A stretch of DNA of 25,061 nt, taken from positions 1 to 25,061 of the IMG/VR virus record IMGVR_UViG_3300032116_001224; one strand, written 5' to 3'. The notes beneath the pieces were generated by a model, which worked only from the letters and a program-made list of their open reading frames with translations, had not been told where the DNA came from and did not search any database. Position numbers and translations under genes: made by a program. How positions within the stretch are numbered: the first letter of the stretch is position 1; every line of letters starts with the position of its first letter. The DNA is from a virus. Shown here piece by piece: positions 5,504 through 19,870 of the stretch.

Positions 5504-5541
5504 CAAATGTACAGCAAGTTTCAGAAAACGCAAACTATTTT
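5504..5541 (-). promoter_or_regulatory. Early operon promoter with palindromic operator
   Basis: Minus strand: -33 TTTG (5534-5531), 19-base spacer, -7 TACATTTG (5511-5504), all matching the Bacteroidetes consensus. A palindrome AGTTT-N10-AAACT covers 5517-5536, overlapping the -33 and half of the spacer, followed by ATTTT (5537-5541). The same block (AAGTTT, ten bases, AAACTATTTT) occurs at the regulator promoter at 6002-6027. A protein bound here would block polymerase. Confidence 0.7.
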
Positions 5542-5583
5542 GTGCAAAAAATTATAACGCGCTGATAAATAGCGTAATATTTT

Positions 5584-5988: not shown

Positions 5989-6027
5989 CAAAGCTAACTG
6001 AAAGTTTTAAAAAATCAAAACTATTTT
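5989..6027 (-). promoter_or_regulatory. Promoter and operator of the HTH regulator
   Basis: Minus strand: -33 TTTTG (6020-6016), 19-base spacer, -7 TAGCTTTG (5996-5989), start codon at 5983. The palindrome AGTTT-N10-AAACT lies at 6003-6022 and is extended by ATTTT (6023-6027), as at the early promoter. The start point falls at or within a base or two of the A of the ATG. The upstream part overlaps the 3' end of the spanin-like gene. Confidence 0.7.
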
Positions 6028-6437
6028 ATCAGAAAACGCAGAAGCAGCGCAACAAGCAATATTAGCCCAAGCCAGGAAAATACCTCTTTGCCGGTATTGT
6101 AAGCCCGTTGCCAAAATGATTGAACAGGCAGCGCACGCGGTACTGATATGCGCTTTTCAATGTAAACCGTATCGCCTTTGCACTCACCTGAAATATAAAC
6201 TATGCTGTCTTTTTTAAAATACCTGATCACTAACTTGTCTTTTGTGATTACCAACGTATCTGTGCGCGGTATGTCAACAAATGCCGTATCATGCTGCACG
6301 GTTTGCGTGCGAATGGTGTCGCGCACAATTAGCGTATCTGTGGTACAATATTTACGCAGTATGCGCTCTTTGTATGCTTTGCATCCGCAAGTCATCCCAT
6401 AAGCCAAAAGAATAAAGAATACGGCTATTTTATTCAT
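6021..6437 (-). CDS. Candidate unimolecular spanin (lipoprotein with C-terminal membrane anchor)
   Basis: The 138-residue protein begins with a hydrophobic export signal (residues 3-14) followed by a cysteine pair, C17 and C19, in MTCGC; this is a weak lipobox. A beta-rich, Asp/Thr-rich middle (30-100, repeated DT-x-x-V pieces) spans the periplasm. A strong membrane helix (about 118-137, FSWLGLILLVALLLRFL) ends in K. A lipid-anchored N-terminus and a membrane-anchored C-terminus are the arrangement of unimolecular spanins such as phage T1 gp11, which disrupt the outer membrane after endolysin action. It follows the endolysin gene with an ATGA overlap. If the lipobox is not used, it would be an ordinary two-anchor envelope protein. 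Confidence 0.6.
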   Translation of the reverse strand: MNKIAVFFILLAYGMTCGCKAYKERILRKYCTTDTLIVRDTIRTQTVQHDTAFVDIPRTDTLVITKDKLVIRYFKKDSIVYISGECKGDTVYIEKRISVPRALPVQSFWQRAYNTGKEVFSWLGLILLVALLLRFLIK

Positions 6438-7928: not shown

Positions 7929-9812
7929 TTATAGATTAACTTGATATGCTGCCAATGCTGCGTCTAATAATGGTTTATTTATGTTTGATGCCTTGCCAAA
8001 ACCAAACGTTGTTTTGCGTATGTTGCTGCCCATAAAATCAAAGAAATTGTTTGTTTGATATGCGCGGCAAAAAGAGTTAAACTCTTGATTCATCTTGCCG
8101 GTATCGCTTCCATTTGAGAATGGCCCATACTGCGTGCCATTTACCATAATGTAAATATCATTGCCGCTGCGCCACATAATTAATCTTTGAAATGCAGGCT
8201 CTGAATTAGCTGTTGCATATGTTTGTACCCCTGTATTTATATTAAACAAATATTGAACAGTAATCGAAAGTGAATTAAGAATAAAAAACATATCTATCCT
8301 TTTATTAAATGTACTATCAAATACAGATTCAGCAAATCCAACTGGGGCAAACCCTTCATAATAATACAATGCAAACCACAAAAAATCATCTGTTGGTATG
8401 GCGCTTGTGTTAGGGTTAAATGCTTCGCGTATTCTACCGTCAACACCGTTTCCTGAATAGCCTTGATTTATTGTTTTTGTTAATGTATTTACCCGTGTTG
8501 GTATTAATGTACCTGGAGATGACCAGTTGATACCGTCAAAACCTAAATTTGCGGGTATTACACCATGCACAAGGTCATTGCCATACACGCGAATTAATTC
8601 AAAATCAGATATGCCATTGGCTGTTGCTGCCTTTAAATTGGCCATGTAATCACTTTGCAAGACCTTTTGAAAGTTACTTACTGTTGTAAACCCTTGCGCT
8701 GTGGCATAGTTAAGAACGTTGCGGTAATCTGGATCGTACTGTTGAAGTATTATGCATTCTAATTGCTCAGCGGTTAAATTGGTTTCTAAAAAGTCACAAC
8801 TTAAATTTTGAAGCACGCAAATGTTTTGTTCTTCGGTAAGCCCCAAGTATGGGTCTGTCAGTTCTTCGCATGTTGCATCTTGAATAATACAACTGCGTTG
8901 CTCATCAGTAAGGCCATTGTACCTGTCATTTATAAAGCCACACGGCAACGCTTGCAACACACATGATTTTTGATTATCACTAAGCCCTGTGTATGGGTCA
9001 ATCAATTGCTCGCATGTGTATTCTTCTATTGGCTTGCCTACGCACTCACGCTGCTCATCTGTAAGGCCGGTATATTGGTTATTTAAAAATTCGCATGAAA
9101 GGCTTTGCAGCACGCATGTCTTTTGGTCATCAGTCAAACCATTATATGGGTCAATTAATTCTCCACATGTGTATAATTCAATAGGCTTATATGGCAAACA
9201 AGCTAATTGCTCAGTTGTCAATCCCAAATACGGGTCATTTAAAAAGTCACAATCAAATGAGCGAAGCAAGCAACTAAGTTGCGATTCTATTAAGCCTTCC
9301 AACAATTGCGCGCATGAGTAATCAGATAATGGCGGGCCAAAGCAAGCAATTTGCTCATAGGTCAAGTTATCCTTTAAATAGTCGCACGTGAGCGATGCCA
9401 GCACGCAGTTGATTTGTTCAGTTGTTAATCCGGTGTATGGCGTAAGTAAATCTTCGCAGCTGAAATCAATAGGATTAATATCAGGGCATGGGTTGGTAAT
9501 TATTGGGGGCGTGTTAAAGCACGTTTCATCCACAACAATCTTTACCAAATCTGTCATCAGAAAAGTCGCATTTGCCGGATTGGTGTTTACAGGGCTTGTT
9601 TGCTCATACACATTCAAGGTCCATACCCCGCCAAAGCCAAAATCGTGATTGATAACAAATTTTTGGTAATCAGCGCACGTGCTTACGTTTTCAGGTATAA
9701 TGTAAATATTCCCGCATGCCAACCCGCTCACAAACTCAAACAAAAAATATTGCTTAGTAGAGTCAAGGTATAAAATGACCGTGTTGCTTTGTGCGCTGTT
9801 TATAGTTATCAT
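7929..9812 (-). CDS. Large tail or receptor-binding protein with Cys-repeat array
   Basis: The 627-residue protein has three parts. Residues 1-110 are beta-rich and probably attach to the virion. Residues 118-357 hold ten degenerate repeats of 21-28 residues built on C-x2-L-x2-p-Y-x-G-L-T-x-E-Q-x2-C, each with two cysteines. Residues 358-627 are Gly/Asn-rich and aromatic, with beta-type repeats (FLWFALYYYEG, LIMWRSGNDIYIMVNGTQYG) recalling a lectin-like jelly roll. The array could form a disulfide- or metal-linked stalk, with the C-terminal domain as the receptor-binding tip. It is the third gene of the portal operon, after the connector, with a TAATG start. Receptor binding is inferred from size and architecture. 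Confidence 0.6.
   Translation of the reverse strand: MITINSAQSNTVILYLDSTKQYFLFEFVSGLACGNIYIIPENVSTCADYQKFVINHDFGFGGVWTLNVYEQTSPVNTNPANATFLMTDLVKIVVDETCFNTPPIITNPCPDINPIDFSCEDLLTPYTGLTTEQINCVLASLTCDYLKDNLTYEQIACFGPPLSDYSCAQLLEGLIESQLSCLLRSFDCDFLNDPYLGLTTEQLACLPYKPIELYTCGELIDPYNGLTDDQKTCVLQSLSCEFLNNQYTGLTDEQRECVGKPIEEYTCEQLIDPYTGLSDNQKSCVLQALPCGFINDRYNGLTDEQRSCIIQDATCEELTDPYLGLTEEQNICVLQNLSCDFLETNLTAEQLECIILQQYDPDYRNVLNYATAQGFTTVSNFQKVLQSDYMANLKAATANGISDFELIRVYGNDLVHGVIPANLGFDGINWSSPGTLIPTRVNTLTKTINQGYSGNGVDGRIREAFNPNTSAIPTDDFLWFALYYYEGFAPVGFAESVFDSTFNKRIDMFFILNSLSITVQYLFNINTGVQTYATANSEPAFQRLIMWRSGNDIYIMVNGTQYGPFSNGSDTGKMNQEFNSFCRAYQTNNFFDFMGSNIRKTTFGFGKASNINKPLLDAALAAYQVNL
8742..9461 (-). repeat. 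Degenerate coding repeats, ten units of about 72 bases
   Basis: Codes for residues 118-357 of the tail protein. Unit starts are marked by Cys-x2-Leu and unit ends by Glu-Gln-x2-Cys. Units alternate between a short form followed by a tail in VLQSL and a longer form with a Pro-rich insert such as GKPIEEY or PYKPIELY. Third-codon positions differ between units, so the duplication is old or selected at protein level. Confidence 0.8.
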
Positions 9813-10312
9813 TAAAAGAACCCTCCAACCTTGCGGCTATTGATACGGCACTTGTTGCAATCGCTGTTCTTCCACAGCGGGTAAGTATCTTCGTTATCTT
9901 GCAGGAACTTAATCATGAGCGATTCAAATATGCCCGCATCCAACCGGTATTGATTAGCTTGCTTTTCAATGGTCAAAAAGTCAACAAATTCACTTTCGTC
10001 ACTCACCTTGCGAACCACGCTTTCAGCTGTAACGCGTATGGGATGGCGGTAAATAAAATCAGCAAACGCATAGCGCACGTGGATGTCTTTTATGTAGCAC
10101 AATAGCGCTGTGTTTGCTTCAGTTAGCGTGTCATTGTTTATTTGGTTGCACAACTCATCGTACAAATCATCGCAAAGCAATGGTTGAATGTACTGCAATT
10201 GCGTTAATTCAATGCTTGGAGCAATCTGATTGTTTTGGATATTGTGCGTTCCTATTGGCACACGGCCTGTAAAATCGCTAAGGCTTATGAATAAACATTT
10301 GCAGCAACTCAT
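9812..10312 (-). CDS. Probable head-tail connector or head completion protein
   Basis: This 166-residue, mainly helical protein lies immediately after the portal gene (ATGA overlap), where connectors are usual. Residues 31-70 (IAPSIELTQLQYIQPLLCDD, then LYDELCNQ) and 95-145 form helices. Two cysteine pairs at the ends (CCKC at 3-6, and CNKC near 152-155) could bind zinc or pair. The overall pattern recalls the DUF6712-type proteins of Bacteroidota phages, but this is recollection. The next gene starts at its stop (TAATG). Confidence 0.55.
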   Translation of the reverse strand: MSCCKCLFISLSDFTGRVPIGTHNIQNNQIAPSIELTQLQYIQPLLCDDLYDELCNQINNDTLTEANTALLCYIKDIHVRYAFADFIYRHPIRVTAESVVRKVSDESEFVDFLTIEKQANQYRLDAGIFESLMIKFLQDNEDTYPLWKNSDCNKCRINSRKVGGFF

Positions 10313-11589
10313 ATTGTGGTGTCTTGTTGTGATGGTCTTGTTGCGGGATATCCCAATGATGTGCGTATTTCTGATTCGTCAAGGTAAGCAAGAAAATCAG
10401 GATCAAGGTAGCTGATAGGCTTATTGGTAACAAATTCTACTTTTGTGCCGTCATAACCTTCCACGTATTGCAATACGCGGTTAATTTCCTGCTCTACAAA
10501 TTTGATATGCCCTTGTATTTGCGATACATACATCTCAATGCTGTTGGCAATCTCATTTGTGCTACCCAATGCGCCAGGCGTTTCAATGCCGGCCAATAAT
10601 TTAGGCATTTGAAATGCAGATACTATCTTTTTTTCAATAATTTCAGCTAATGTGTTGAACAAATCAGCATTATTGTTGGCTGATATGGGTATCAATTGCG
10701 GTGCGCTTTCGCGGCTTGGGCCAAACAAGTTGAATATTTTACCGCTGTTTTCAGCGCCTTGGAATTGCTCTAAATCTTCTTTTAGCGCATCAACCACATC
10801 ACGGCCATCGGCTGTTTTTTCGCCTGACATGATGCCTGGGTGATACAGAATTACAGACGGGAAAAAGCCATTATCAATGTTGTTTTCGTGAAACTCACCT
10901 ATTTGCCCATCGCAATAAATCCAACTTAAACCAGCAGCCCATACCGGAGATGGGTAAAATGGTTCGCCAGGCTTGTATTGCTTGGTGTAAAACAATTGTC
11001 CATTGTACGAGCCTGTTCCGCGTTGTTTAATATCTTCAACCGCTTGGCGCGCTTTGATTACGTCAAACAATTCAATTTCAATAGGTTTGTATTCCTTTTT
11101 GGTGTACTGCTCCCAATCTTGTGATATCCATGCGGTGCGCACGTCAAACGTGGTTTCATCGTAATTGCCCAAGCGAATGGTACTAAAATCAACATGCACG
11201 ATGCCGCTGCCGTTAAATGAGCGCATAGCAATATTGCCATTGCTGTTAAACCGGCATTGAAAAGCAAACCCGCCAAACATGGCGTAGTCGTAAATGATTT
11301 TTTGCATGAACTCATGCGTGAGCAGGTAATATTGAATCTCACGCGAAAATGGCGTGTCTTGGCTCACTTTTATGCCGTTGCCAAAAATATACGATGCAAA
11401 TGTTTTTACACAGCTTGCGCCATAGCTTGAACGATTAATTGCCCTCAGTATCTCTTGCGGGTAATTATTTTTTGCCCCGTAGTTGATTATTTTGCGCTGC
11501 TTATTGTTTACAGCCGTAAGCGGTTCAGGCGCTTTAGCTTGGATGAGGTAAATCCCCTTTTGCAATTCAGTTATGTTGGCATTTTGCAT
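10309..11589 (-). CDS. Phage portal protein
   Basis: Dodecameric ring at the capsid vertex through which DNA is packaged. The frame can be extended to a TTG at 11592, but the ATG at 11589-11587 is the better start (426 residues). Features of HK97-type portals are an N-terminal stretch with NNYPQEILRAINRSSYG (about 41-57), a helical wing and stem region, the segment FQMPKLLAGIETPGALG (about 330-346) matching the family's conserved xxPxxLLG-type loop, and a C-terminal helical crown. The promoter at 11595-11623 leaves 5 bases between the -7 box and the ATG. Usually a terminase large subunit gene precedes the portal; here a divergent metallophosphoesterase does. Confidence 0.82.
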   Translation of the reverse strand: MQNANITELQKGIYLIQAKAPEPLTAVNNKQRKIINYGAKNNYPQEILRAINRSSYGASCVKTFASYIFGNGIKVSQDTPFSREIQYYLLTHEFMQKIIYDYAMFGGFAFQCRFNSNGNIAMRSFNGSGIVHVDFSTIRLGNYDETTFDVRTAWISQDWEQYTKKEYKPIEIELFDVIKARQAVEDIKQRGTGSYNGQLFYTKQYKPGEPFYPSPVWAAGLSWIYCDGQIGEFHENNIDNGFFPSVILYHPGIMSGEKTADGRDVVDALKEDLEQFQGAENSGKIFNLFGPSRESAPQLIPISANNNADLFNTLAEIIEKKIVSAFQMPKLLAGIETPGALGSTNEIANSIEMYVSQIQGHIKFVEQEINRVLQYVEGYDGTKVEFVTNKPISYLDPDFLAYLDESEIRTSLGYPATRPSQQDTTI

Positions 11590-11594
11590 CAATG

Positions 11595-11715: not shown

Positions 11716-12732
11716 ATGGGAAAACAATTATCTAAGCGAGATTTGGCGCGTCAAATATTGCTTGAAAACTATCAAATTACCGAAAACAGAACCCTTGCAA
11801 AGCTATTGTTTGCCAAATACAATGCCGTGTTTAAGGATATAGAGGAAGCAAGAAGTTCAATTCGGGCTGTTCAGGGATTAAGCGGGAAAAGGGTTAGAAA
11901 CACAAGCGCAAATGCAATAATTACATTTAAAGAAAGGCTTGATGAAGCGCGCAAGCAGTTCCCCGTTGAACATCGTGATAATTTCAAAGTTGAGCCATAC
12001 GTATTTGCTAAAGCGAATAAAAAGGCACTTGTTATTTCTGACATACACATAGGACATCAAGATGACGCGGCTATTGATATTGCGTTTGAAGAAGGCGATA
12101 AGTTTGGCATCGATACCATAATTATCAATGGTGACTTAATGGATTTCCCACGTTTAGGCAAGTGGTTAGTAAAGCCATCGGCTATGACCGTGCATGATGA
12201 ACTTCAGGAAACAGAAAACTTTTTAAATATGCTCAGAAAGGTTTTTCCAAAACAAACCATTGTGTACCACACTGGCAATCATGATGCTCGTTGGAATAAC
12301 TATATAATTCGCAACGCTGCTGATTTGTTTAATTTGGGATTTATGGAACTCCCCGAAGTATTGAAACTGCGTGAAAAAAGCATAGAGTTTGTACCCGATA
12401 CGCATTGGATGGAATTTGGGCATCTTATGGTTGCGCACGGCCATCACATCGTAAAAGGCATATTTGCACCGGTATCACCTGCTCGTGGCGTACAAATGAA
12501 AACATTTCAGTCAACTATTATAGGCCACTTGCACAAATCATCCGAGCATCTTTGGACAAATATGCAAGGCAAACAATATGGTACATGGAGTACCGGTTGC
12601 TTATCTGATTTAAAACCGGAATACAATCCCCAAGTAGGGCAATGTAACCTTGGTTTCGCATTGGTTGAAAAAGAGCAATCAGGTGATTTTGAAGTGCATA
12701 ACAAAAAAATCATTCAAGGCAAAGTTAGGTGA
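11716..12732 (+). CDS. Calcineurin-like metallophosphoesterase with N-terminal HTH-like segment
   Basis: The 338-residue protein contains all metal-binding blocks of the superfamily: DIHIGH (D109, H111), INGDLMD (D140), TGNHDAR (N188, H189, D190), VAHGHH (H241) and IGHLHK (H271, H273). Residues 1-65 form an added helical, possibly DNA-binding, segment. Substrate is unknown; related enzymes cut phosphodiesters in nucleic acids or nucleotides. It stands on the plus strand against nearly all other phage genes. Its own promoter carries the same palindrome as the regulator gene. It occupies the place beside the portal where a terminase gene would be expected. It is followed by a small gene on the same strand. 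Confidence 0.85.
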   Translation: MGKQLSKRDLARQILLENYQITENRTLAKLLFAKYNAVFKDIEEARSSIRAVQGLSGKRVRNTSANAIITFKERLDEARKQFPVEHRDNFKVEPYVFAKANKKALVISDIHIGHQDDAAIDIAFEEGDKFGIDTIIINGDLMDFPRLGKWLVKPSAMTVHDELQETENFLNMLRKVFPKQTIVYHTGNHDARWNNYIIRNAADLFNLGFMELPEVLKLREKSIEFVPDTHWMEFGHLMVAHGHHIVKGIFAPVSPARGVQMKTFQSTIIGHLHKSSEHLWTNMQGKQYGTWSTGCLSDLKPEYNPQVGQCNLGFALVEKEQSGDFEVHNKKIIQGKVR

Positions 12733-12754: not shown

Positions 12755-13009
12755 ATGTCGGGATCGAAAACCAAAGCAAAGCAAATTGAAGAAATGGAGG
12801 CCCCTGTGTTGCATTTGGAAGAAATGCGCGCATGGGCTTCTTTACTTAACGAACTGATGATTTCTCAGGTAATTGATGAAAGCAAGAGTACATTTGGTGG
12901 TGAGCCTGTAATGAAAAATCTATTTGACGAAGGCGAAACATACAGGCTAAAAGGAAAGCTATTTCATTTGCTTGCCTGGATTGATAAAGACACAAGCCTT
13001 ACAGGTTAA
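12755..13009 (+). CDS. Small hypothetical protein after the phosphoesterase
   Basis: This 84-residue protein begins MSGSKTKAKQIEEMEAPVLH at the ATG 12755. An upstream extension of the frame to 12650 overlaps the phosphoesterase gene and is unlikely. A helical, amphipathic body (about 22-45 and 58-79) contains MRAWASLLNELMIS and RLKGKLFHLLAWI. No family recognised. A TAAATTTG box at 12744-12751 precedes the ATG by 3 bases but lacks a clear -33 partner. It converges with the glycosyltransferase at 12999 and overlaps its 3' end by 11 bases. Its pairing with the phosphoesterase suggests shared function. Confidence 0.6.
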   Translation: MSGSKTKAKQIEEMEAPVLHLEEMRAWASLLNELMISQVIDESKSTFGGEPVMKNLFDEGETYRLKGKLFHLLAWIDKDTSLTG

Positions 13010-13766
13010 TGCTAAACACATTAGGGCATTCAATCAAACGCTTCTCATGCCCGAAATAATCCAATACACAGCCTTCTTCAGCATTGAACCATTGCTGCAC
13101 ATGGTCGTCTAATCGGCTGTTAAAGTTTTGCCGTGCAGATGAGTTTTCCAACTTGCGCCTGATGTTGTTGCGCACAAATGAAAAGTGGTGCATTTCAATT
13201 TCTGACCTGCTAAATGGCAAAAACTTAGTCGTGTGCATCCTGCGGGTTGGATCAGAATAAACCGGATAATGGTCAATCATGGCGTGCGATTTATCAATGC
13301 GATGAAACAACGGCACATAATACTCCTCCGGAGGCCACAGCTTTAATGTAGGCCGTTTGTAATACGTTTGCATTTTGCAGGCTGAACCGTCAAAATCTGA
13401 CGCAATAAAACGCTCATAGCAGGTTTGGTACTGGTCTGTATGATAGTACTCATCGCAATCCATGTGAGCCATTACGGTGCAGCCGTTTTTCTTACAATAA
13501 TCAGCGCCTATTTGCCGCTTGGCCTTTTCCTTTTTAATCGGGATGCTGCCATTTGTTTCAACAACCGCAATTTCATCAATTAAGCCCAGTTCACAAAGGC
13601 GCAAACATTCTGAATACCCACCGGTATAAAATTGGCCGTGATTCGAGGTTGTTTGAACCACGGCCACAATGTAATCAGCAATGGGACGCACGCACATGAT
13701 GGAGCCGTCAAGCAGTTCTTCACCGTCAAAAACATTGTATGCAATACCAAGTTTGTGCATTACCAT
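12999..13766 (-). CDS. Glycosyltransferase, GT-A type (last gene of the glycan operon)
   Basis: The 255-residue protein has a GT-A Rossmann-like start (DYIVAVVQTTSNHGQFYTGG), EIAVVETNGS (65-74), and the metal-binding motif MDCDEYY (102-108), with D103 and D105 as the DxD pair that holds the nucleotide-sugar metal ion. The C-terminal part is rich in His and aromatic residues (EIEMHHFSFVRNN). Donor and acceptor cannot be told. It may also start at ATG 13760, which overlaps the previous stop as TAATG. It is the last gene of the operon and meets the plus-strand gene end to end. Confidence 0.7.
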   Translation of the reverse strand: MVMHKLGIAYNVFDGEELLDGSIMCVRPIADYIVAVVQTTSNHGQFYTGGYSECLRLCELGLIDEIAVVETNGSIPIKKEKAKRQIGADYCKKNGCTVMAHMDCDEYYHTDQYQTCYERFIASDFDGSACKMQTYYKRPTLKLWPPEEYYVPLFHRIDKSHAMIDHYPVYSDPTRRMHTTKFLPFSRSEIEMHHFSFVRNNIRRKLENSSARQNFNSRLDDHVQQWFNAEEGCVLDYFGHEKRLIECPNVFSINL

Positions 13767-13978
13767 TTATTTTTTGGGCATTCCTCATCCATTGCCCTGT
13801 GCTTGGCAGGAAGATAGCACCCACACCCGCCATTGCGCAGTTTGCAATATTTGCTTTTGCCAAATTCGCTTACAGGGCAGGCATCACAAATCCCCTTGCG
13901 TTGCTTTGCCACATCTTCAACCAACTCTTTTGTGAACAGCAAATTGGTAAAACCTTCAGCTATTGATTTTAGATTCAT
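13760..13978 (-). CDS. Small Cys-rich protein, possible zinc-binding
   Basis: This 72-residue protein begins MNLKSIAEGFTNLLFTKELV, then CDACPVSEFGKSKYCKLRNG and GCGCYLPAKHRAMDEECPKNKW. Seven cysteines between residues 31 and 67 are spaced as CxxC, C, CxC, C, which suits a zinc ribbon or iron-sulfur site. Similar small Cys-rich proteins are common in phages of this group (recollection). It lies between a methyltransferase and a glycosyltransferase with overlaps on both sides, so it may be an adaptor for one of them. Function unknown. Confidence 0.55.
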   Translation of the reverse strand: MNLKSIAEGFTNLLFTKELVEDVAKQRKGICDACPVSEFGKSKYCKLRNGGCGCYLPAKHRAMDEECPKNKW

Positions 13979-14610
13979 GCAGGCAATATTACAATTACGC
14001 CACGTTTTGCACCGGTTGCCTGGCTGTTGTACTCCACGCGGTATTTACCCGCGCCATATATCGCTTCAATACCGTCTTTGATGTAATCCCATTCATATAC
14101 GATTGAGCCGTATGTATCAAATCCAAGTTCAGCATTGCCAAGTACTTTAAAATCATGTATCGCAATAACAGGCTTAAATCCGTATTCTTTAATCAGTGCC
14201 AGCTCATCAAGCAGCGGGTTGTACTCGCCCCAATGCGCATCCAAAAAAAATAACGTGTTGGGCTTTTTACCTTGCTTTGGCCGTGCTTCAAAAATGGCTT
14301 TTAATACTTCAGCAGAATTGCCAAAGTGCATGTTTACATTTTCAACTCCGGCAAGTGTTTCTTTTGCTGCGGCAAAGTTCTCAGCATTAATTTCAATGGT
14401 GTCAACCTTTGCAGCCATGTTAGCAAAGTGCCGCGTAGTTGCGCCCCTGAAAGTGCCGGTTTCAACAATCCAAGTAATTTTGTTTTCTGTGGTGATTTTT
14501 TCAAACCATTCCTTGAGGAAGGTGTCGCCCTCAAAGCCAAGCGCATTTTGCGCCAAGTATTGTTTATTGTTCATAAGATAAAATTGTTTCAGTTTTGTAA
14601 GTAGGCCCAT
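13975..14610 (-). CDS. SAM-dependent methyltransferase (class I)
   Basis: The 211-residue protein has a class I methyltransferase fold: motif I WIVETGTFRGATTRH (47-61, the SAM-binding Gly loop), acidic E73 at the end of the second strand (VDTIEIN), and the fourth strand TLFFLDAHWG (119-128), followed by IHDFKV. A small N-terminal helical part precedes it. This is the arrangement of Methyltransf_24/TylF-like enzymes acting on sugars or small molecules. Among glycosyltransferases, an O-methylation of a sugar is likely. A GTG at 14613 opens the frame, but the ATG at 14610 overlaps the previous stop as ATGA and is chosen. Confidence 0.75.
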   Translation of the reverse strand: MGLLTKLKQFYLMNNKQYLAQNALGFEGDTFLKEWFEKITTENKITWIVETGTFRGATTRHFANMAAKVDTIEINAENFAAAKETLAGVENVNMHFGNSAEVLKAIFEARPKQGKKPNTLFFLDAHWGEYNPLLDELALIKEYGFKPVIAIHDFKVLGNAELGFDTYGSIVYEWDYIKDGIEAIYGAGKYRVEYNSQATGAKRGVIVILPA

Positions 14611-15284
14611 CACATTCCTTTCATTTTAAAAATGGTTGTATCGGTAACAGGCCAATCTTGCCCAACGTAGCACAAATGCTCAGTAGGCTCATGTAATATG
14701 GGGTTGCTTATTTCAGTATGCACGGCAAGTGATAGGCATGTTTGGTCTTGCCGGTGAAACAAAAAACGCGAGTCTTTGCTGCCCCATCCGTGATGACGAG
14801 GACCGTTAAATATGCCATCTTTTGCTGATTGTAAAAACAATTCGCACACCGCTTCTGCGTCTAAATTGGACAAATCAAGTCCAAAAACGCAACTCCAAAT
14901 CTCAGGTAAATGCTCTGCCGTGTTGCGGCTTATGTTAAAGTATTCCAATGCCTTGTCATTACTTGTTTGCGCGCAGTTGTAGCCCGATTTTATAAAGTAA
15001 TAGCCATCGCGCTCAATAATGTCAAAGATAGGCTGTATGTCTTTTATAGCCCATATTGAACAATCCAACCAAAGGATGCGTGTTGCGCCTTGGTGAATGG
15101 CCGTGTAAATCTCTGCCGCCTTTACCGTGTACGGGCAGGAGTGCAAAAAGTACGGGTTGGTGTCAAGGTTTGTTTTGCTAAATGACAATTCAAAACCTTT
15201 CATGCCTTGCAATGATTCACGCAGGCGTTTTTGCCCATCTGCATACCAACCGTTGCCAGTATAACCGTTAATTACTACATTCAT
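14610..15284 (-). CDS. Probable glycosyltransferase
   Basis: The 224-residue protein begins MNVVINGYTGNGWYADGQKR, with the core strand TRILWLDCSIWAIKD (68-82). Here LDCS places D74 and S76 where GT-A enzymes hold DxD-type metal ligands. The C-terminal half contains a His-rich segment (PRHHGWGSKDSRFLFHRQD). The motif is a variant, so a hydrolytic or a non-canonical GT-A enzyme is possible. Overlaps with both neighbours (ATGA) fix it in the operon. No signal peptide; cytoplasmic. Confidence 0.55.
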   Translation of the reverse strand: MNVVINGYTGNGWYADGQKRLRESLQGMKGFELSFSKTNLDTNPYFLHSCPYTVKAAEIYTAIHQGATRILWLDCSIWAIKDIQPIFDIIERDGYYFIKSGYNCAQTSNDKALEYFNISRNTAEHLPEIWSCVFGLDLSNLDAEAVCELFLQSAKDGIFNGPRHHGWGSKDSRFLFHRQDQTCLSLAVHTEISNPILHEPTEHLCYVGQDWPVTDTTIFKMKGM

Positions 15285-15862
15285 TTGGCTGCTGTTTTAT
15301 GTGAATCGTGTTGGTACAGGTGCAAAACGTGCGGAATGTGATGGCTTGTTTCGCACAAATCATTTATTGCTTGTGAAAATGGCTCATCTTCGCCCCAATT
15401 TGAATCTCCGAATAAGCAATTTTTGGCAATTTCTGTAAGGTAAACATTGCAATGCCATGCGGGCCGCTCAGTAATGCCATTTGAATTAAACGCTTGCAAC
15501 TCGCCTTTGTGCTTAAAATGTACAATGCTATGCGCGGTGTTTATGCGCGCAAGCTGATTGAAGGTGATCAAATCAACATTGGTGTCATGTATCGCGTTGC
15601 AAATCTCGTACACGTAATTGGCGGTCACATAGTCATCATCATCCAACATAGTGCAGTATTTGGCGTTTGCTTTTAAAGCCAAGTTTACCAATTCCTGGCG
15701 CTTTTGTCCAATGCTTAACTGCTTATTGTCAATTAATGTAATTATTTTTACCTGCTCAGGCCGTTCATATTCAGATATTTGGCGCTGCAACTCGTCAAAT
15801 ATTAATTTCAGCTGTTCAATTCTTTCAGGAATAGACGGTATAAGTATAGCTAATGTTTTCAT
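15281..15862 (-). CDS. Family 2 glycosyltransferase (paralog 1)
   Basis: The 193-residue protein begins with KTLAILIPSIPERIEQLKLI, the usual GT2 first strand. It then has IITLIDNKQLSIGQKRQELV (40-59) and the metal motif MLDDDDYV (72-79, D74-D77). Short for GT2 (typically 230 or more), it lacks a membrane anchor. It is clearly related to the next upstream gene at 15859-16461, with shared DNKQ-x2-IG-x-KRQ and DDDD blocks, so the two are tandem duplicates with divergent C-termini. Donor and acceptor are unknown. Confidence 0.78.
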   Translation of the reverse strand: MKTLAILIPSIPERIEQLKLIFDELQRQISEYERPEQVKIITLIDNKQLSIGQKRQELVNLALKANAKYCTMLDDDDYVTANYVYEICNAIHDTNVDLITFNQLARINTAHSIVHFKHKGELQAFNSNGITERPAWHCNVYLTEIAKNCLFGDSNWGEDEPFSQAINDLCETSHHIPHVLHLYQHDSHKTAAK

Positions 15863-16461
15863 TTAGTAAACCCGTATTTTTTATTGTGTGGTATATGTGT
15901 GGTGTACCTATAGTGAAACATGGGCTTATTGATAAACACCTCATCCTTGCACAGCAAGGTCACTTTATCGCTATACTCTTTATCCTCACCAAAACGTTTA
16001 TCAAGAAAGCCTACCAATTTTGCAATGTAAGACTTGACCGGATTGAAATGCGTTACGTTACGCACATAGTCATATCCTGCATAGTTATCTTTCCAGTCAG
16101 GAAATTGCAGGCTGTGGCAGCACATTTGAGGTTGCCGGCCATTGGTGGTCATGCGTATAAGCATACCAATACAATCAGGCTTTGTTTCTAATGCGGCCAC
16201 CACTTCAGCCACATAATACGCCTCCGGCCAATCGTCATCATCAAAGAATACAACGTACTCACCTGCGGCCATGTCAAGCAGCTTTTGCCTTTTTGCGCCA
16301 ATAGTCATTTGCTTATTGTCGCTAATGCTGCACACCTCCACAATGTCTTGATACTTGTTAATCTCAATTTGGCGGTTAAACTCCTGAACCAATTGATTAA
16401 ACTGCTGCTGACGTTCCAGCACCGTTGCTATCAGTATCGATAGTTTTTTGTTTGAGTTCAT
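15859..16461 (-). CDS. Family 2 glycosyltransferase (paralog 2)
   Basis: The ATG at 16461 (MNSNKKLSILIATVLERQQQ) is chosen because it gives the normal GT2 N-terminus; an earlier ATG at 16542 adds 27 residues that look like out-of-place coding. The 200 residues contain CSISDNKQMTIGAKRQKLLD (44-63) and VVFFDDDDWPEAYYV (70-84, D74-D77). It overlaps the 75-residue gene upstream by 65 bases in a different frame, unusual for this phage. C-terminal region is rich in His and Tyr (FHYRYTTHIPHNKK). It may add a second sugar after paralog 1. Confidence 0.75.
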   Translation of the reverse strand: MNSNKKLSILIATVLERQQQFNQLVQEFNRQIEINKYQDIVEVCSISDNKQMTIGAKRQKLLDMAAGEYVVFFDDDDWPEAYYVAEVVAALETKPDCIGMLIRMTTNGRQPQMCCHSLQFPDWKDNYAGYDYVRNVTHFNPVKSYIAKLVGFLDKRFGEDKEYSDKVTLLCKDEVFINKPMFHYRYTTHIPHNKKYGFTK

Positions 16462-16624
16462 CGTATTTCTGTTTGTAAAAGGTGATGATGTTTTGCGCAA
16501 TTTCTGATTGTGGGTCTGCTGCAATGGAAAGCAAATGGCCAACCATTATACGGTTTTGCTCGCTTGCTTTTTCAAATGCTTTCTTCCACTTGTTGCGTTC
16601 TGTTTTAAATGCTTTGCCGCTCAT
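16397..16624 (-). CDS. Small helical hypothetical protein
   Basis: The 75-residue protein is highly charged and helical (MSGKAFKTERNKWKKAFEKA in its first 20 residues, FYKQKYDELKQKT near 49-61), ending in a Ser/Gly/Ala tail. No family recognised. Its ATG overlaps the stop of the preceding glycosyltransferase (ATGA), a strong sign that it is translated. Its 3' part overlaps the next glycosyltransferase by 65 bases. It could mediate assembly of the neighbouring enzymes, but function is unknown. Confidence 0.5.
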   Translation of the reverse strand: MSGKAFKTERNKWKKAFEKASEQNRIMVGHLLSIAADPQSEIAQNIITFYKQKYDELKQKTIDTDSNGAGTSAAV

Positions 16625-17325
16625 ATTTGTTTCAGTTTACTTTTTACCCAATTAATAGTGCCTTGGTCTTGTATTTTGCCAACCGGATTATCGATATCAA
16701 ACCCGCGCTTCCAATAATCCAAAAAAACGCGTTCGCCTTCGTTCCATGTTGCATCAGCCCGTTGGCTTACGCTATCTTTTTTTATGCCATCAGCCTGCGA
16801 ATAGTGCTTATGCCTAAAGTGCAAATTGCTCACAATCTTGCGGCCTAATAAATCAGCCACGCAGGTCATGTGCGTGTCGCAAAACATGTGCTTGTACATG
16901 GGCGGGTAAATGTAGCCAAAGCGGTTATAATACTCCCTATCCATTATTGGCAGCGTAATTATCCACCCTTGCGTGCCGTCTTGCGTTTTTAGAATCCAAT
17001 CTTTGCAGTCGCCTACCTCAGCAGCAATAAGTTCATCCCAATGTACGGCAGGCTCAAAATCATCGCTAATGCAAATAAGCACTTTGCCCTTTGCCACGCC
17101 TGCCGCATTGTTTACCGCTTGCACCGTTGATGATGGCACAGGATTGATAAATACCTGATTGGATGCAAACAAGCGCATGTATTCATGCAATTGCGGGTCA
17201 TCTGCGTCAATGCTCAAAATATACTCATACGTGTGCAGGCTACTAATGTTTGACATCCACTTTTGGTATGTCTTGTACGCCAAATGAGCTCGGCCACGGC
17301 TGGGATGTATTACGCTAAATTTCAT
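16621..17325 (-). CDS. Glycosyltransferase-like protein, GT-A type
   Basis: ATG at 17325-17323 overlaps the previous stop as TAATG; a TTG at 17331 is an artefactual earlier start. The 234 residues begin MKFSVIHPSRGRAHLAYKTY, a GT2-type nucleotide-binding start. Then come EYILSIDADDP (34-44) and VLICISDDFEP (82-92), with SDD (D88, D89) as the metal motif. The C-terminal part includes DRKYYNRFG-like segments, H/Y-rich stretches and a Lys-rich end. The enzyme has no membrane segment. Donor unknown. Confidence 0.7.
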   Translation of the reverse strand: MKFSVIHPSRGRAHLAYKTYQKWMSNISSLHTYEYILSIDADDPQLHEYMRLFASNQVFINPVPSSTVQAVNNAAGVAKGKVLICISDDFEPAVHWDELIAAEVGDCKDWILKTQDGTQGWIITLPIMDREYYNRFGYIYPPMYKHMFCDTHMTCVADLLGRKIVSNLHFRHKHYSQADGIKKDSVSQRADATWNEGERVFLDYWKRGFDIDNPVGKIQDQGTINWVKSKLKQI

Positions 17326-18008
17326 TAGCAAAGGTTTTTTATTTTCTGTGGATGAAAGGCTAAATACGTGCTGAATATACGCTCAGCAATAAAGGCGTGC
17401 ATAGTGTAATAAGGTTTGCCAATGCTGCGCATTAGTTGCGCTTCTGTATTATGGTTGGTATTGCCAACCCTGTACGGCATACGCTTGTTTAACTCATCCT
17501 GCAAATCCTGATGGGTTTCCAATACGTTCACGCATGGAAGCAGCCAATTGTCAACAAAATCTTTATACACGCTTAATTTGGTCACATGCGCGTTTTGATA
17601 CACCACCGGAGTGCGCGGTATGGTGCGCAGGTTAAAATGAAAGCCAATGCGCTTAAACATTTCCTCTGCCATCATAATTATCCCATTGTGCCATACTTCG
17701 CCCTTTTGCCAAATGTTTGGATGCGTAAGCGCTGAAAAAAAGGTGTAGACATCATGCTTATATTCATCCTGCTCAATGCGCAGGCGCAAGTTGCTGATGC
17801 TAATTGGCACTTTCATTTCGAATTTCCATGAAAGCACGCCAAGGTAATCGCAGGCAAAGTCATTGGAAGCAAACAAATCGCAAATAGTACGGCTTTCTAA
17901 TGTAGGGTATGGCTCAAACCGCTTGCTGTTATCAATGCCAATACACCCAGGATGCAGCTTTGCCTTTGTTTCAGGTGAATAGTAAATTTGATACAGGTCT
18001 GTTTTCAT
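17325..18008 (-). CDS. Putative glycan-biosynthesis protein of unknown family
   Basis: The 227-residue soluble protein begins MKTDLYQIYYSPETKAKLHP and has a core FACDYLGVLSWKFEMK (about 52-67). A regular helical/beta mix without a clear DxD follows, and the C-terminus is HPQKIKNLC. Similar pieces (DYLGVLSWKF) occur in bacterial capsular-type glycosyltransferases, as far as I recall, but I cannot name a family. It begins the series of enzymes in the operon, preceded by the 58-residue gene through an ATGA overlap and followed by TAATG. Confidence 0.5.
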   Translation of the reverse strand: MKTDLYQIYYSPETKAKLHPGCIGIDNSKRFEPYPTLESRTICDLFASNDFACDYLGVLSWKFEMKVPISISNLRLRIEQDEYKHDVYTFFSALTHPNIWQKGEVWHNGIIMMAEEMFKRIGFHFNLRTIPRTPVVYQNAHVTKLSVYKDFVDNWLLPCVNVLETHQDLQDELNKRMPYRVGNTNHNTEAQLMRSIGKPYYTMHAFIAERIFSTYLAFHPQKIKNLC

Positions 18009-18181
18009 GAAATTTTAGCCAACCAATCATACGCCTTGTTAAACCTGCAACCGCAACTCTTTGGAATGCCTGCCTTACTTGCTTGGGCAAGGTCAAATAA
18101 TTGCTTCCATAACGGATTGTTGCGCGGCATAGCACGGCCACCGGCAGCATCTATTTGTGTTTTCAGTTCTTGCGGGGTCAT
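18005..18181 (-). CDS. 58-residue first gene of the glycan operon
   Basis: Minus-strand ATG 18181-18179, TGA at 18007-18005. The product begins MTPQELKTQIDAAGGRAMPR, contains NPLWKQLFDLAQ and ends in SCGCRFNKAYDWLAKIS. The CGC motif and basic helix recall small phage proteins of this size with a zinc- or DNA-binding role, but none is certain. It shares an ATGA overlap with the next gene. Its ATG lies 4 bases after the -7 box of the promoter at 18186-18219, so the transcript would be leaderless. Confidence 0.65.
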   Translation of the reverse strand: MTPQELKTQIDAAGGRAMPRNNPLWKQLFDLAQASKAGIPKSCGCRFNKAYDWLAKIS

Positions 18182-18185
18182 GTGC

Positions 18186-18219
18186 CAAAATTAATATGTA
18201 GTTTTTAAAAATACAAACA
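18186..18219 (-). promoter_or_regulatory. Glycan operon promoter with near-consensus operator
   Basis: Minus strand: -33 TTTG (18217-18214), 20-base spacer, -7 TAATTTTG (18193-18186). AGTTT-N10-AAACA at 18200-18219 matches the shared palindrome at nine of ten defined positions, in the same place relative to the -7 box. It follows the terminator of the head operon. The predicted start lies at the ATG. Confidence 0.6.
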
Positions 18220-18230
18220 AATTTTTGCAC

Positions 18231-18261
18231 AAAAAAGAAAAGCCCCACATTCCTGCGGGGC
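18231..18261 (-). terminator. Intrinsic terminator after the head operon
   Basis: Minus strand: GCCCCGC (18261-18255) pairs with GTGGGGC (18248-18242), with one G-U, around a 6-base loop. TTTTCTTTTTT (18241-18231) follows. It sits about 37 bases past the stop of the gene ending at 18298 and before the promoter of the next operon. Confidence 0.85.
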
Positions 18262-18297: not shown

Positions 18298-18870
18298 TTA
18301 CAATAATGATTCAAGGTAATTCAAAGTGTCCTCATAGTTACCGTTTTTCAGCAATTGCGGGGCAAGGCCGTCAACGTTACCTGTGAAGGTAAAGGTGTAG
18401 CCAGCAGCATCGCCAGGTGCTGTACCGGTAGTTTGTGTGGCAGCAGTTAATTCAACACCATCGCCTTGGCCTAACAACCAAAAGCGGTTATTAAAGTCAC
18501 GTGCAACAATGTAGAAATTGCCACCAATAAGGCCATCAATATCCAATCTGCTTTGCGCATCTGACTGAATAAATGAACCCGTGAGCGTTTGAGTGTAGTA
18601 TTTATAGCCACCGTCCGTTACAACAAGCTCATGCGTAATTGCTCCGCTCTGCTTTTTAGTGCAGAACTTATAAGCATTTGCGTATGCGCTAATTGCAAGT
18701 CCGGTAACATAAAAAGGCGCTACACCAGTATAGTAGATTCCATTAATGCCTAATGTTGAATCCACGTCATCGTAATTGATGACGTAGATTTCATTAAACA
18801 ATCCTGACTTTCCACGGATATCGTTGCACGATGCGCAATCCAATCCGGCTGTAATTTTACAAGCTGCCAT
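18298..18870 (-). CDS. Probable tail tube or other major tail protein
   Basis: The 190-residue protein is beta-rich and Gly/Thr-rich, typical of tail tube or head decoration proteins. Its N-terminus (MAACKITAGLDCASCNDIRG) has cysteines at 4, 12 and 15, and GQGDGVELTAATQTTGT lies at about 135-151. It is directly after the capsid gene and before the terminator. It has the only clear Shine-Dalgarno in the window, AGGAGGTAA, suggesting high translation, which fits a major structural protein. The family assignment rests on context and general composition. Confidence 0.5.
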   Translation of the reverse strand: MAACKITAGLDCASCNDIRGKSGLFNEIYVINYDDVDSTLGINGIYYTGVAPFYVTGLAISAYANAYKFCTKKQSGAITHELVVTDGGYKYYTQTLTGSFIQSDAQSRLDIDGLIGGNFYIVARDFNNRFWLLGQGDGVELTAATQTTGTAPGDAAGYTFTFTGNVDGLAPQLLKNGNYEDTLNYLESLL

Positions 18871-18889: not shown

Positions 18890-19870
18890 TTAGTAAGCCA
18901 ACACGGTCAATTCATCGTACATGTACTGAGTTCCAATTTTGAACTCACCATCAATGTAAGTCAATTTGTCTTTGCGCTCGTAGTACATCTCAAAGCTGTT
19001 GGTGTCGCTGATAGCATCAGTTCCCAAGTACAGGTTTGATTTAGCGGTGTAAATCGCGCGGTTAGGGAATGACAGGTTGTAGTGGCTAATAGCGTTGCTC
19101 CATTCAGTTGCTTTGTACACCGGAATGCCACGGAAGTAAACCTGACGTGATCCGTTTTCAAGCATCTGCCATGACATATCACCACAGCAAGCATCTTCAC
19201 GAAGCGCGAGGTAGTTGTAGTACAGGTCGCGGGTAAGTTTGAAATACTTCTCATTGTCAGCAACCTGATCTAACAAATCGCTTGCGTTTTCGTGCATTTC
19301 ACGCAGAACGGTTAATGATTGACCAGCTGTTAAAGTATTGCTTTGGAAAGTGTAAGCACGTTGTACGCCATAAGCTGATACACCATTAATCAGTTTCTTC
19401 CACAATCCATCGCAGGTAGCCAATGTAGCGTTGTTACTTTGTGTGTCGCCAAACCAAAGGATTGTGTAAACGTCACGGGCAAGTGCTTCAGACACTTTGC
19501 GCTCAATGTATGTAGCAACTTCAGTTCCGGTAAGGTCATAAATAGCGTTGCCGGTTTTCAGCCATTCTTCCATGAAGGTATCGGCCAAGTTTTTAGCGCA
19601 TTGCTCCAGGTTGATTTTAGCGTCACATACCTCAAGGAATTTATCGGTTAAGTCGATAACATCACCGGCAGTTGTGCGACCGCAGCCTGAAGATGCACGC
19701 ACGATGTCGCGCAGGTTGGTATCAAGTACTACTTGACGCTTAGATTTAACGCCCAGCATAACTTCCACTTCAGAAGTGATGGACGGGATAAGGAATGCGG
19801 GTTTGATAAATACATCATTCGCCTGTTGTCCTTCCCAAGCAACGTTGTCAAAGTTTAAAATGTTTGCCAT
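18890..19870 (-). CDS. Major capsid protein (HK97-like fold)
   Basis: The 326-residue protein fits the size and order of HK97-type capsid subunits after proteolysis. The N-terminal arm (about 1-40) leads to a helical, charged P-domain (about 85-125), then beta-rich A-domain segments (NGSRQVYFRGIPVYKA near 240-255). The end is EFKIGTQYMYDELTVLAY-like. Cysteines cluster in ASSGCGRT (60-67) and DACCGDM (near 226-232). It lies between the protease/scaffold gene and the tail tube candidate. No cleavage site can be fixed by eye. Confidence 0.8.
   Translation of the reverse strand: MANILNFDNVAWEGQQANDVFIKPAFLIPSITSEVEVMLGVKSKRQVVLDTNLRDIVRASSGCGRTTAGDVIDLTDKFLEVCDAKINLEQCAKNLADTFMEEWLKTGNAIYDLTGTEVATYIERKVSEALARDVYTILWFGDTQSNNATLATCDGLWKKLINGVSAYGVQRAYTFQSNTLTAGQSLTVLREMHENASDLLDQVADNEKYFKLTRDLYYNYLALREDACCGDMSWQMLENGSRQVYFRGIPVYKATEWSNAISHYNLSFPNRAIYTAKSNLYLGTDAISDTNSFEMYYERKDKLTYIDGEFKIGTQYMYDELTVLAY

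Follow-up and report, generated by a model that had tools for sequence, protein, structure and literature searches.

Few phages (mycobacteriophages) have been shown to glycosylate their virions, and phage glycosyltransferases (GTs) are usually classed as accessory genes. Mycobacteriophages carry glycans on the capsid and the tail tube (PMC12619734), and the capsids of phage Che8 are reported to be glycosylated (Freeman 2023, as cited in PMC11256854). The capsid glycans of the algal virus PBCV-1 are built by virus-encoded, mostly soluble GTs, with GT domains joined to a methyltransferase (PMC9614988). Here we describe a cassette of ten genes (g1 to g10), including several GT genes and a candidate methyltransferase gene, which lies between a tube-like virion gene and the portal gene in a 25,061-base viral fragment of IMG/VR (IMGVR_UViG_3300032116_001224, positions 1 to 25,061; hereafter the window). 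Two further fragments of the same virus, 100% and 99.99% identical to the window, extend beyond it. We favour, with moderate confidence, the reading that the cassette is a soluble, phage-encoded glycosylation module for a virion protein.

Glycosyltransferase and methyltransferase candidates in the cassette

The cassette consists of ten minus-strand open reading frames (ORFs) that overlap or abut one another from position 18181 down to 12999. Its left boundary is the gene of a tube-like virion protein related to phrog_19091 (18298–18870, minus) and its right boundary is the portal gene (10309–11592, minus). An earlier note on this DNA had placed ten overlapping genes between the capsid and portal blocks, which we confirmed with the qualification that a metallophosphoesterase gene (11716–12732, plus; phrog_221, PF00149) separates g10 from the portal gene. 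This gene is unrelated to the cassette and was not observed at that place in the relatives, whose portal gene comes right after g10.

Three of the products were assigned as GTs by profile. The g5 product (15859–16461, minus) is a GT2-family enzyme with a DDDD motif that matched phrog_14775 (2e-36) and scored 28.3 bits against PF00535, over the curated cut-off of 23.3 bits. Its GT2-family paralogue g6 (31%; 15281–15862, minus) matched phrog_8858 (1.4e-24) and reached 20.7 bits with PF00535, under the same cut-off. The GT2-like g3 (16621–17325, minus) matched phrog_14945 (9e-19) with a PF00535 score of 15.4 bits, also under the cut-off, and 7 of its 13 relatives match PF00535 (best 4.3e-8). The g7 product (14610–15284, minus), for which zero profile matches were obtained, was assigned to the GT-A fold by a structure model built from a 13-sequence alignment. 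Profile and structure searches, by which the earlier note had proposed to look for GT-A folds beyond the two GT2 paralogs, thus did yield one in g7, with a mean predicted local distance difference test score (pLDDT) of 90. The model has more than 230 PDB matches at E ≤ 0.001, of which those listed were GT-A enzymes, the best PDB match being the N-terminal domain (domain 1) of the PBCV-1 capsid glycosyltransferase A064R (E = 7.6e-7), and a W-x-D motif is conserved.

The last gene of the cassette, g10 (12999–13766, minus), has homologues in Lak megaphages and probably encodes a GT-A glycosyltransferase, as suggested by GT profile matches that are all sub-threshold and by a conserved KR..G..A...G.T...MD.DE.Y pattern. 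Profile–profile comparisons were not significant for g10 with g5 and for g3 with g5, and weak for g7 with g10 (probability 14.5); a PDB sequence search with g7, g8 and g10 returned nothing clear. The second gene, g2 (17325–18008, minus; 227 aa), is without a family match, was seen only within the cassette and gave no profile match in any of 10 relatives. We therefore regard g3, g5 and g6 (by profile) and g7 (by its GT-A model) as well supported GTs, g10 as a probable one and g2 as unsupported, so that the four to six GT-A enzymes of the earlier note become four to five.

The sugar-type methyltransferase proposed in the same note corresponds to g8 (13975–14613, minus), a putative class I S-adenosylmethionine methyltransferase that weakly matches Methyltransf_24 with 20.2 bits, under the Pfam cut-off of 26.3 bits (E = 0.0011), while the TylF and FkbM methyltransferase matches of the relatives are over the cut-off. 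The remaining products are small: g1 (18005–18181, minus) has 58 aa, contains Cys and leads the cassette in all ten lineage contigs described below, g4 (16397–16624, minus) has 75 aa, is predicted by eye to be helical and was not seen in relatives, and g9 (13760–13978, minus) is a Cys-rich, zinc-binding-like protein of 72 aa that belongs to phrog_13558. Homologues of g9 were also observed in L027, L043, L044, L051 and L056 (near contig ends) and in Cyanophage PSS2, with no GT cluster in the stretch read, and g9 is therefore not cassette-specific. No homologues of g2, g7 and g8 were found in isolated phages by tblastn.

Conservation of the cassette and its site

Searches with g2 and the capsid protein identified nine distinct lineage contigs besides the virus of the window (L170, L177, L179, L182, L183, L185, L188, L189 and L190), making ten in total; L178 and L186 were not counted, since they either nearly duplicate L177 or stop short of the site. 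The gene order tube-g1-g2-g3-g5 was found in all ten. As far as the contigs reach, the tube-like gene is followed by a terminator and promoter, g1-g2-g3-g5, a variable middle of GT and methyltransferase genes, g10 and the portal gene. The variable middle holds g6 and g7 in most contigs, FkbM and/or TylF methyltransferases, and g9, while g10 is found wherever the contig is long enough to include it and the cassette precedes the portal gene in all eight contigs that reach it. Given that the capsid proteins of the nine relatives are merely 24–28% identical to that of the window, the association between cassette and lineage is either old or often re-established. The operon, described earlier as inserted, does lie in the virion region, but its presence in ten of ten lineage members does not fit a one-off insertion, and a recent moron insertion was rejected on the same grounds of lineage-wide conservation.

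We then compared how the proteins diverge. Pairwise identities of g2 correlated with those of the portal protein at r = 0.95 (Spearman 0.81), compared with 0.97 for the neck-type protein (10312–9812, minus), 0.91 for the major capsid protein (MCP; 18890–19870, minus), 0.86 for g6 and 0.84 for g10, where the virus of the window is an outlier that inflates the Pearson values. The correlations were low for g7 (0.42) and the FkbM methyltransferases (0.60), indicating freer variation. The analysis thus divides the cassette into core genes that are conserved and an outer part that varies, and singles out g2 as an uncharacterised family that co-diverges with the portal protein.

The cassette is absent from more distant relatives. 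In L191 the tube gene is separated from the portal gene by about 0.5 kb, and the tube–portal gap of other cassette-free relatives holds fibre genes (phi46:1 and L009) or small genes (Parabacteroides and Phocaeicola phages). A search with g5 and its relatives recovered 78 further viral contigs, most of which have a g3 homologue beside the g5 homologue, and g6, g7 and FkbM-type genes are often present in g5-bearing contigs too. GT clusters of the g3-g5-g10 type were also observed in L100 (53–12465), beside the terminase gene, and in L168 (6413–11359), between tail-sheath/tape-measure and terminase genes, the terminase and tail genes being identified by eye. This suggests that the set moves close to virion genes in unrelated phages as well.

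Some cassettes contain other genes. L183 has an ISXO2-like transposase gene (by eye) within the cassette at 15586–16518 and an HNH-type ORF on the other strand after g10, and L188 has a membrane- or lipoprotein-like ORF in the cassette (17525–18070) that resembles an ORF at 6021–6437 of the window, spanin-like by eye.

Promoter, terminator and a repeated palindrome

The terminator that the earlier note had placed near 18.25 kb is real: an intrinsic terminator at 18261–18242 (minus), with an 8-bp stem of which 6 pairs are G-C and a T tract, parts the capsid genes from the cassette. It is followed by a Bacteroidota-type promoter, TTTG-N20-TAATTTTG (18186–18217, minus). The window holds seven such sites, compared with an expectation of 2.5, and several lie where operons begin; a scan for sigma-70 promoters of the E. 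coli type was at background, and the Bacteroidota consensus was used instead. As the -7 box lies at -12 to -5 (PMC9723704), its position here (18186–18193) would put the transcript start of the cassette at or beside the g1 ATG, making the transcript leaderless. Leaderless mRNAs are rare in Flavobacterium psychrophilum (5.5% of mRNAs; PMC9723704). The -7 box is also close to the g1 start codon in L183, L185, L189 and L190, where a leaderless cassette mRNA is likewise expected. By eye, a hairpin and T tract were present in the tube–g1 gap of all relatives, and in that of most of them a TAnnTTTG-like box (unscored) ends 2–6 bases before a start codon.

Just upstream of the g1 promoter lies a palindrome, TTTTGTGCAAAA (18223–18234). 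The only copies of the palindrome TTTTGNNCAAAA in the window are this one and another at 5538–5549, both just upstream of a Bacteroidota-type promoter, the latter driving genes toward the replication block. In simulated sequences 0.35 copies were expected and at least two occurred in 5%, while the palindrome directly upstream of a full promoter was seen in 0 of 300. The 12-mer TTTGTGCAAAAA with one mismatch allowed was at chance level, leaving only the exact palindrome and its promoter context to stand out, and an equal spacing at both sites was rejected, the distances to the -7 box being 26 and 29 bases. The common palindrome points to shared control of the cassette and the replication operon.

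The earlier note had further read the palindrome as tied to the operator of a repressor, with expression favoured in lysogeny or early infection. The promoter of the cassette and the exact palindrome in common with 5538–5549 were confirmed, but control by a repressor operator and lysogenic expression found no support: no copy of the palindrome was seen ahead of g1 in the relatives, and no tyrosine integrase was found in the window and the nine related records, some of which are 38–43 kb and possibly incomplete (positive controls were recovered; serine integrases were not sought). Among 84,980 bacterial and archaeal genomes, two pattern-limited scans for relatives of g2 and MCP likewise revealed no prophage and no host.

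Candidate acceptors of the glycan

The methylated virion glycan suggested in the earlier note is plausible for a GT and methyltransferase operon with its own promoter in the virion region, and our reading of its acceptor and make-up, of the part played by g2 and of the timing of expression is inferred. Soluble cytoplasmic g3, g5, g6, g7 and probably g10 would assemble a short oligosaccharide from host nucleotide sugars on one of the virus's own structural proteins, most likely the product of a neighbouring gene, such as the capsid (MCP), tube or fibre protein. A methyltransferase would cap the glycan, here g8 and in the relatives the FkbM or TylF types, so that changes in the variable middle may alter outer sugars and methyl groups around a conserved core of g1, g2, g3, g5 and g10. 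The g2 protein, whose divergence parallels that of the portal and capsid proteins, may recognize the virion acceptor.

A virion acceptor is suggested by the fixed site among head genes together with co-divergence, by the occurrence of g5 homologues in capsid-glycosylated or capsid-adjacent cases, and by the failure to find GtrA, tyrosine integrase and thymidylate-synthase-type enzymes in the ten (possibly incomplete) records. Consistently, of 7 viral contigs that have both g5 and a capsid gene recognised by Pfam, 6 place the GT gene within 3.5–8 kb of that gene and on the same strand. The top structural match of g7, a capsid GT of PBCV-1, also speaks for this acceptor. A bolder version, which we consider speculative and rather unlikely, is that g1 and g2 form a phage-only initiation module. 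In it, g2 would represent a new family, of GTs or of acceptor-recognition proteins, and would begin the synthesis of a complex methylated glycan on a head protein, and the lineage would depend on this coat as a core morphogenetic step and not as an optional moron.

Several points weigh against glycosylation of the virion. The alignment of capsid and tube proteins of the cassette lineage revealed no recognisable glycan-bearing tail or insertion. The g2 model had a pLDDT of 44, so that no fold was assigned, and the PBCV-1 match of g7 reflects fold and not orthology, with a narrow margin over blood-group GTs. The promoter and terminator of the cassette cut it off from the capsid genes, with no co-expression required, and phage GTs beside tail genes are often read as modifiers of the host O-chain (PMC7029224).

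The main rival is accordingly that the cassette alters host-surface glycans (O-chain, capsule or S-layer) during infection or in lysogens, thereby shutting out other phages, the virion region being a site that merely tolerates cargo. Pelagimyophage GTs near tail genes are read that way (PMC7029224), which is the usual reading in other aquatic phages, the fibre or small genes in the gap of the nearest cassette-free relatives mark the site as tolerant, and a promoter of its own with a palindrome common to the replication operon suggests early expression. Set against this are the ten records, which contained no GtrA-type flippase (controls were recovered) and no tyrosine integrase, and the cassette genes, among which there were no matches to a flippase, polymerase or oligosaccharyltransferase. 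Cargo for superinfection exclusion should also come and go, but the cassette is in all ten contigs and its g2 co-diverges with the portal protein. On balance we regard modification of the host surface as less likely than that of the virion.

A glycan placed on a tail fibre or Cys-repeat appendage protein, and not on the capsid or tube, appears improbable. The appendage genes lie just past the portal gene and vary between relatives, as might suit such an acceptor, but they are without a sequence signature and the cassette core co-diverges with head genes, the virion genes that the comparison covered. Glycosylation of hypermodified phage DNA is the least credible explanation, for although phage GTs of several folds do so (Pyle 2024, as cited in PMC12619734) and g6 has a faint match to the HMC-glucosyltransferase family (E = 0.0075), no thymidylate synthase/hydroxymethylase-type gene was found in any of the ten, possibly incomplete, records (positive controls were recovered), no Tet/JBP match was obtained in a search without a working control, and five GTs and methyltransferases beside capsid genes would be unusual for DNA modification.

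Surrounding genes and host

Upstream of the MCP gene, the window encodes a tape measure protein (23564–21324, minus) and a Clp-type protease (21023–19893, minus). Beyond the neck-type gene, a 627-aa protein (7929–9812, minus) was observed to carry many Cys-bearing repeats (LT.EQ..C), each about 25–30 aa long; its C-terminal region is distinct, and no family match was found for the protein. Isolate phages with portal relatives infect Cellulophaga, Parabacteroides, Phocaeicola, Nonlabens and other hosts, and these hosts together with the promoters of the Bacteroidota kind suggest that the virus probably infects a member of the Bacteroidota. A DNA-level search of a phage collection with the window gave zero matches.

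Comparison with known glycosylation systems

The closest described systems are those of Che8 (cluster F; GT genes 108–110) and the cluster J phages Lucky2013 and LittleE, which likewise encode several soluble GTs in a row. Che8 gp108 and Lucky2013 gp15 are homologues of g5, the former scoring 106 bits with a profile built from the cassette lineage only. In cluster J the position is also similar, with a GT block between the capsid gene and the head-to-tail genes: in Lucky2013, gp15 comes directly after the MCP gene gp14 and is followed by more GTs before the head-to-tail adaptor. On the other hand, these phages infect hosts of another phylum and have no counterparts of g1, g2, g7, g9 and g10, whereas the cassette is a larger set with a putative methyltransferase and its own Bacteroidota promoter. 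PBCV-1 A064R (GT-GT-methyltransferase) resembles the cassette in combining virus-encoded GTs with a methyltransferase and in the fold of its domain 1, but PBCV-1 is a eukaryotic algal virus with an unrelated capsid and fused GT domains, and its likeness to g7 is of fold only. The GtrABC systems of serotype conversion share phage-encoded glycosyltransferases with the cassette, but they belong to temperate phages and work in the membrane through GtrA and GtrB, and GtrA and a tyrosine integrase were not found in the ten records here.

By profile, g5, g6 and g3 are members of phrog_14775, phrog_8858 and phrog_14945, respectively, families that PHROGs classes as morons or auxiliary genes, whereas in the cassette they form a constant component of the proposed virion module. 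That a cassette of multiple GTs and methyltransferases keeps its tube–portal site despite a capsid identity of about 25% argues that this lineage builds its particles with a sugar coat. In sum, compared with the systems above, the cassette represents a conserved form of phage-encoded glycosylation that defines its lineage and whose target is probably the virion.

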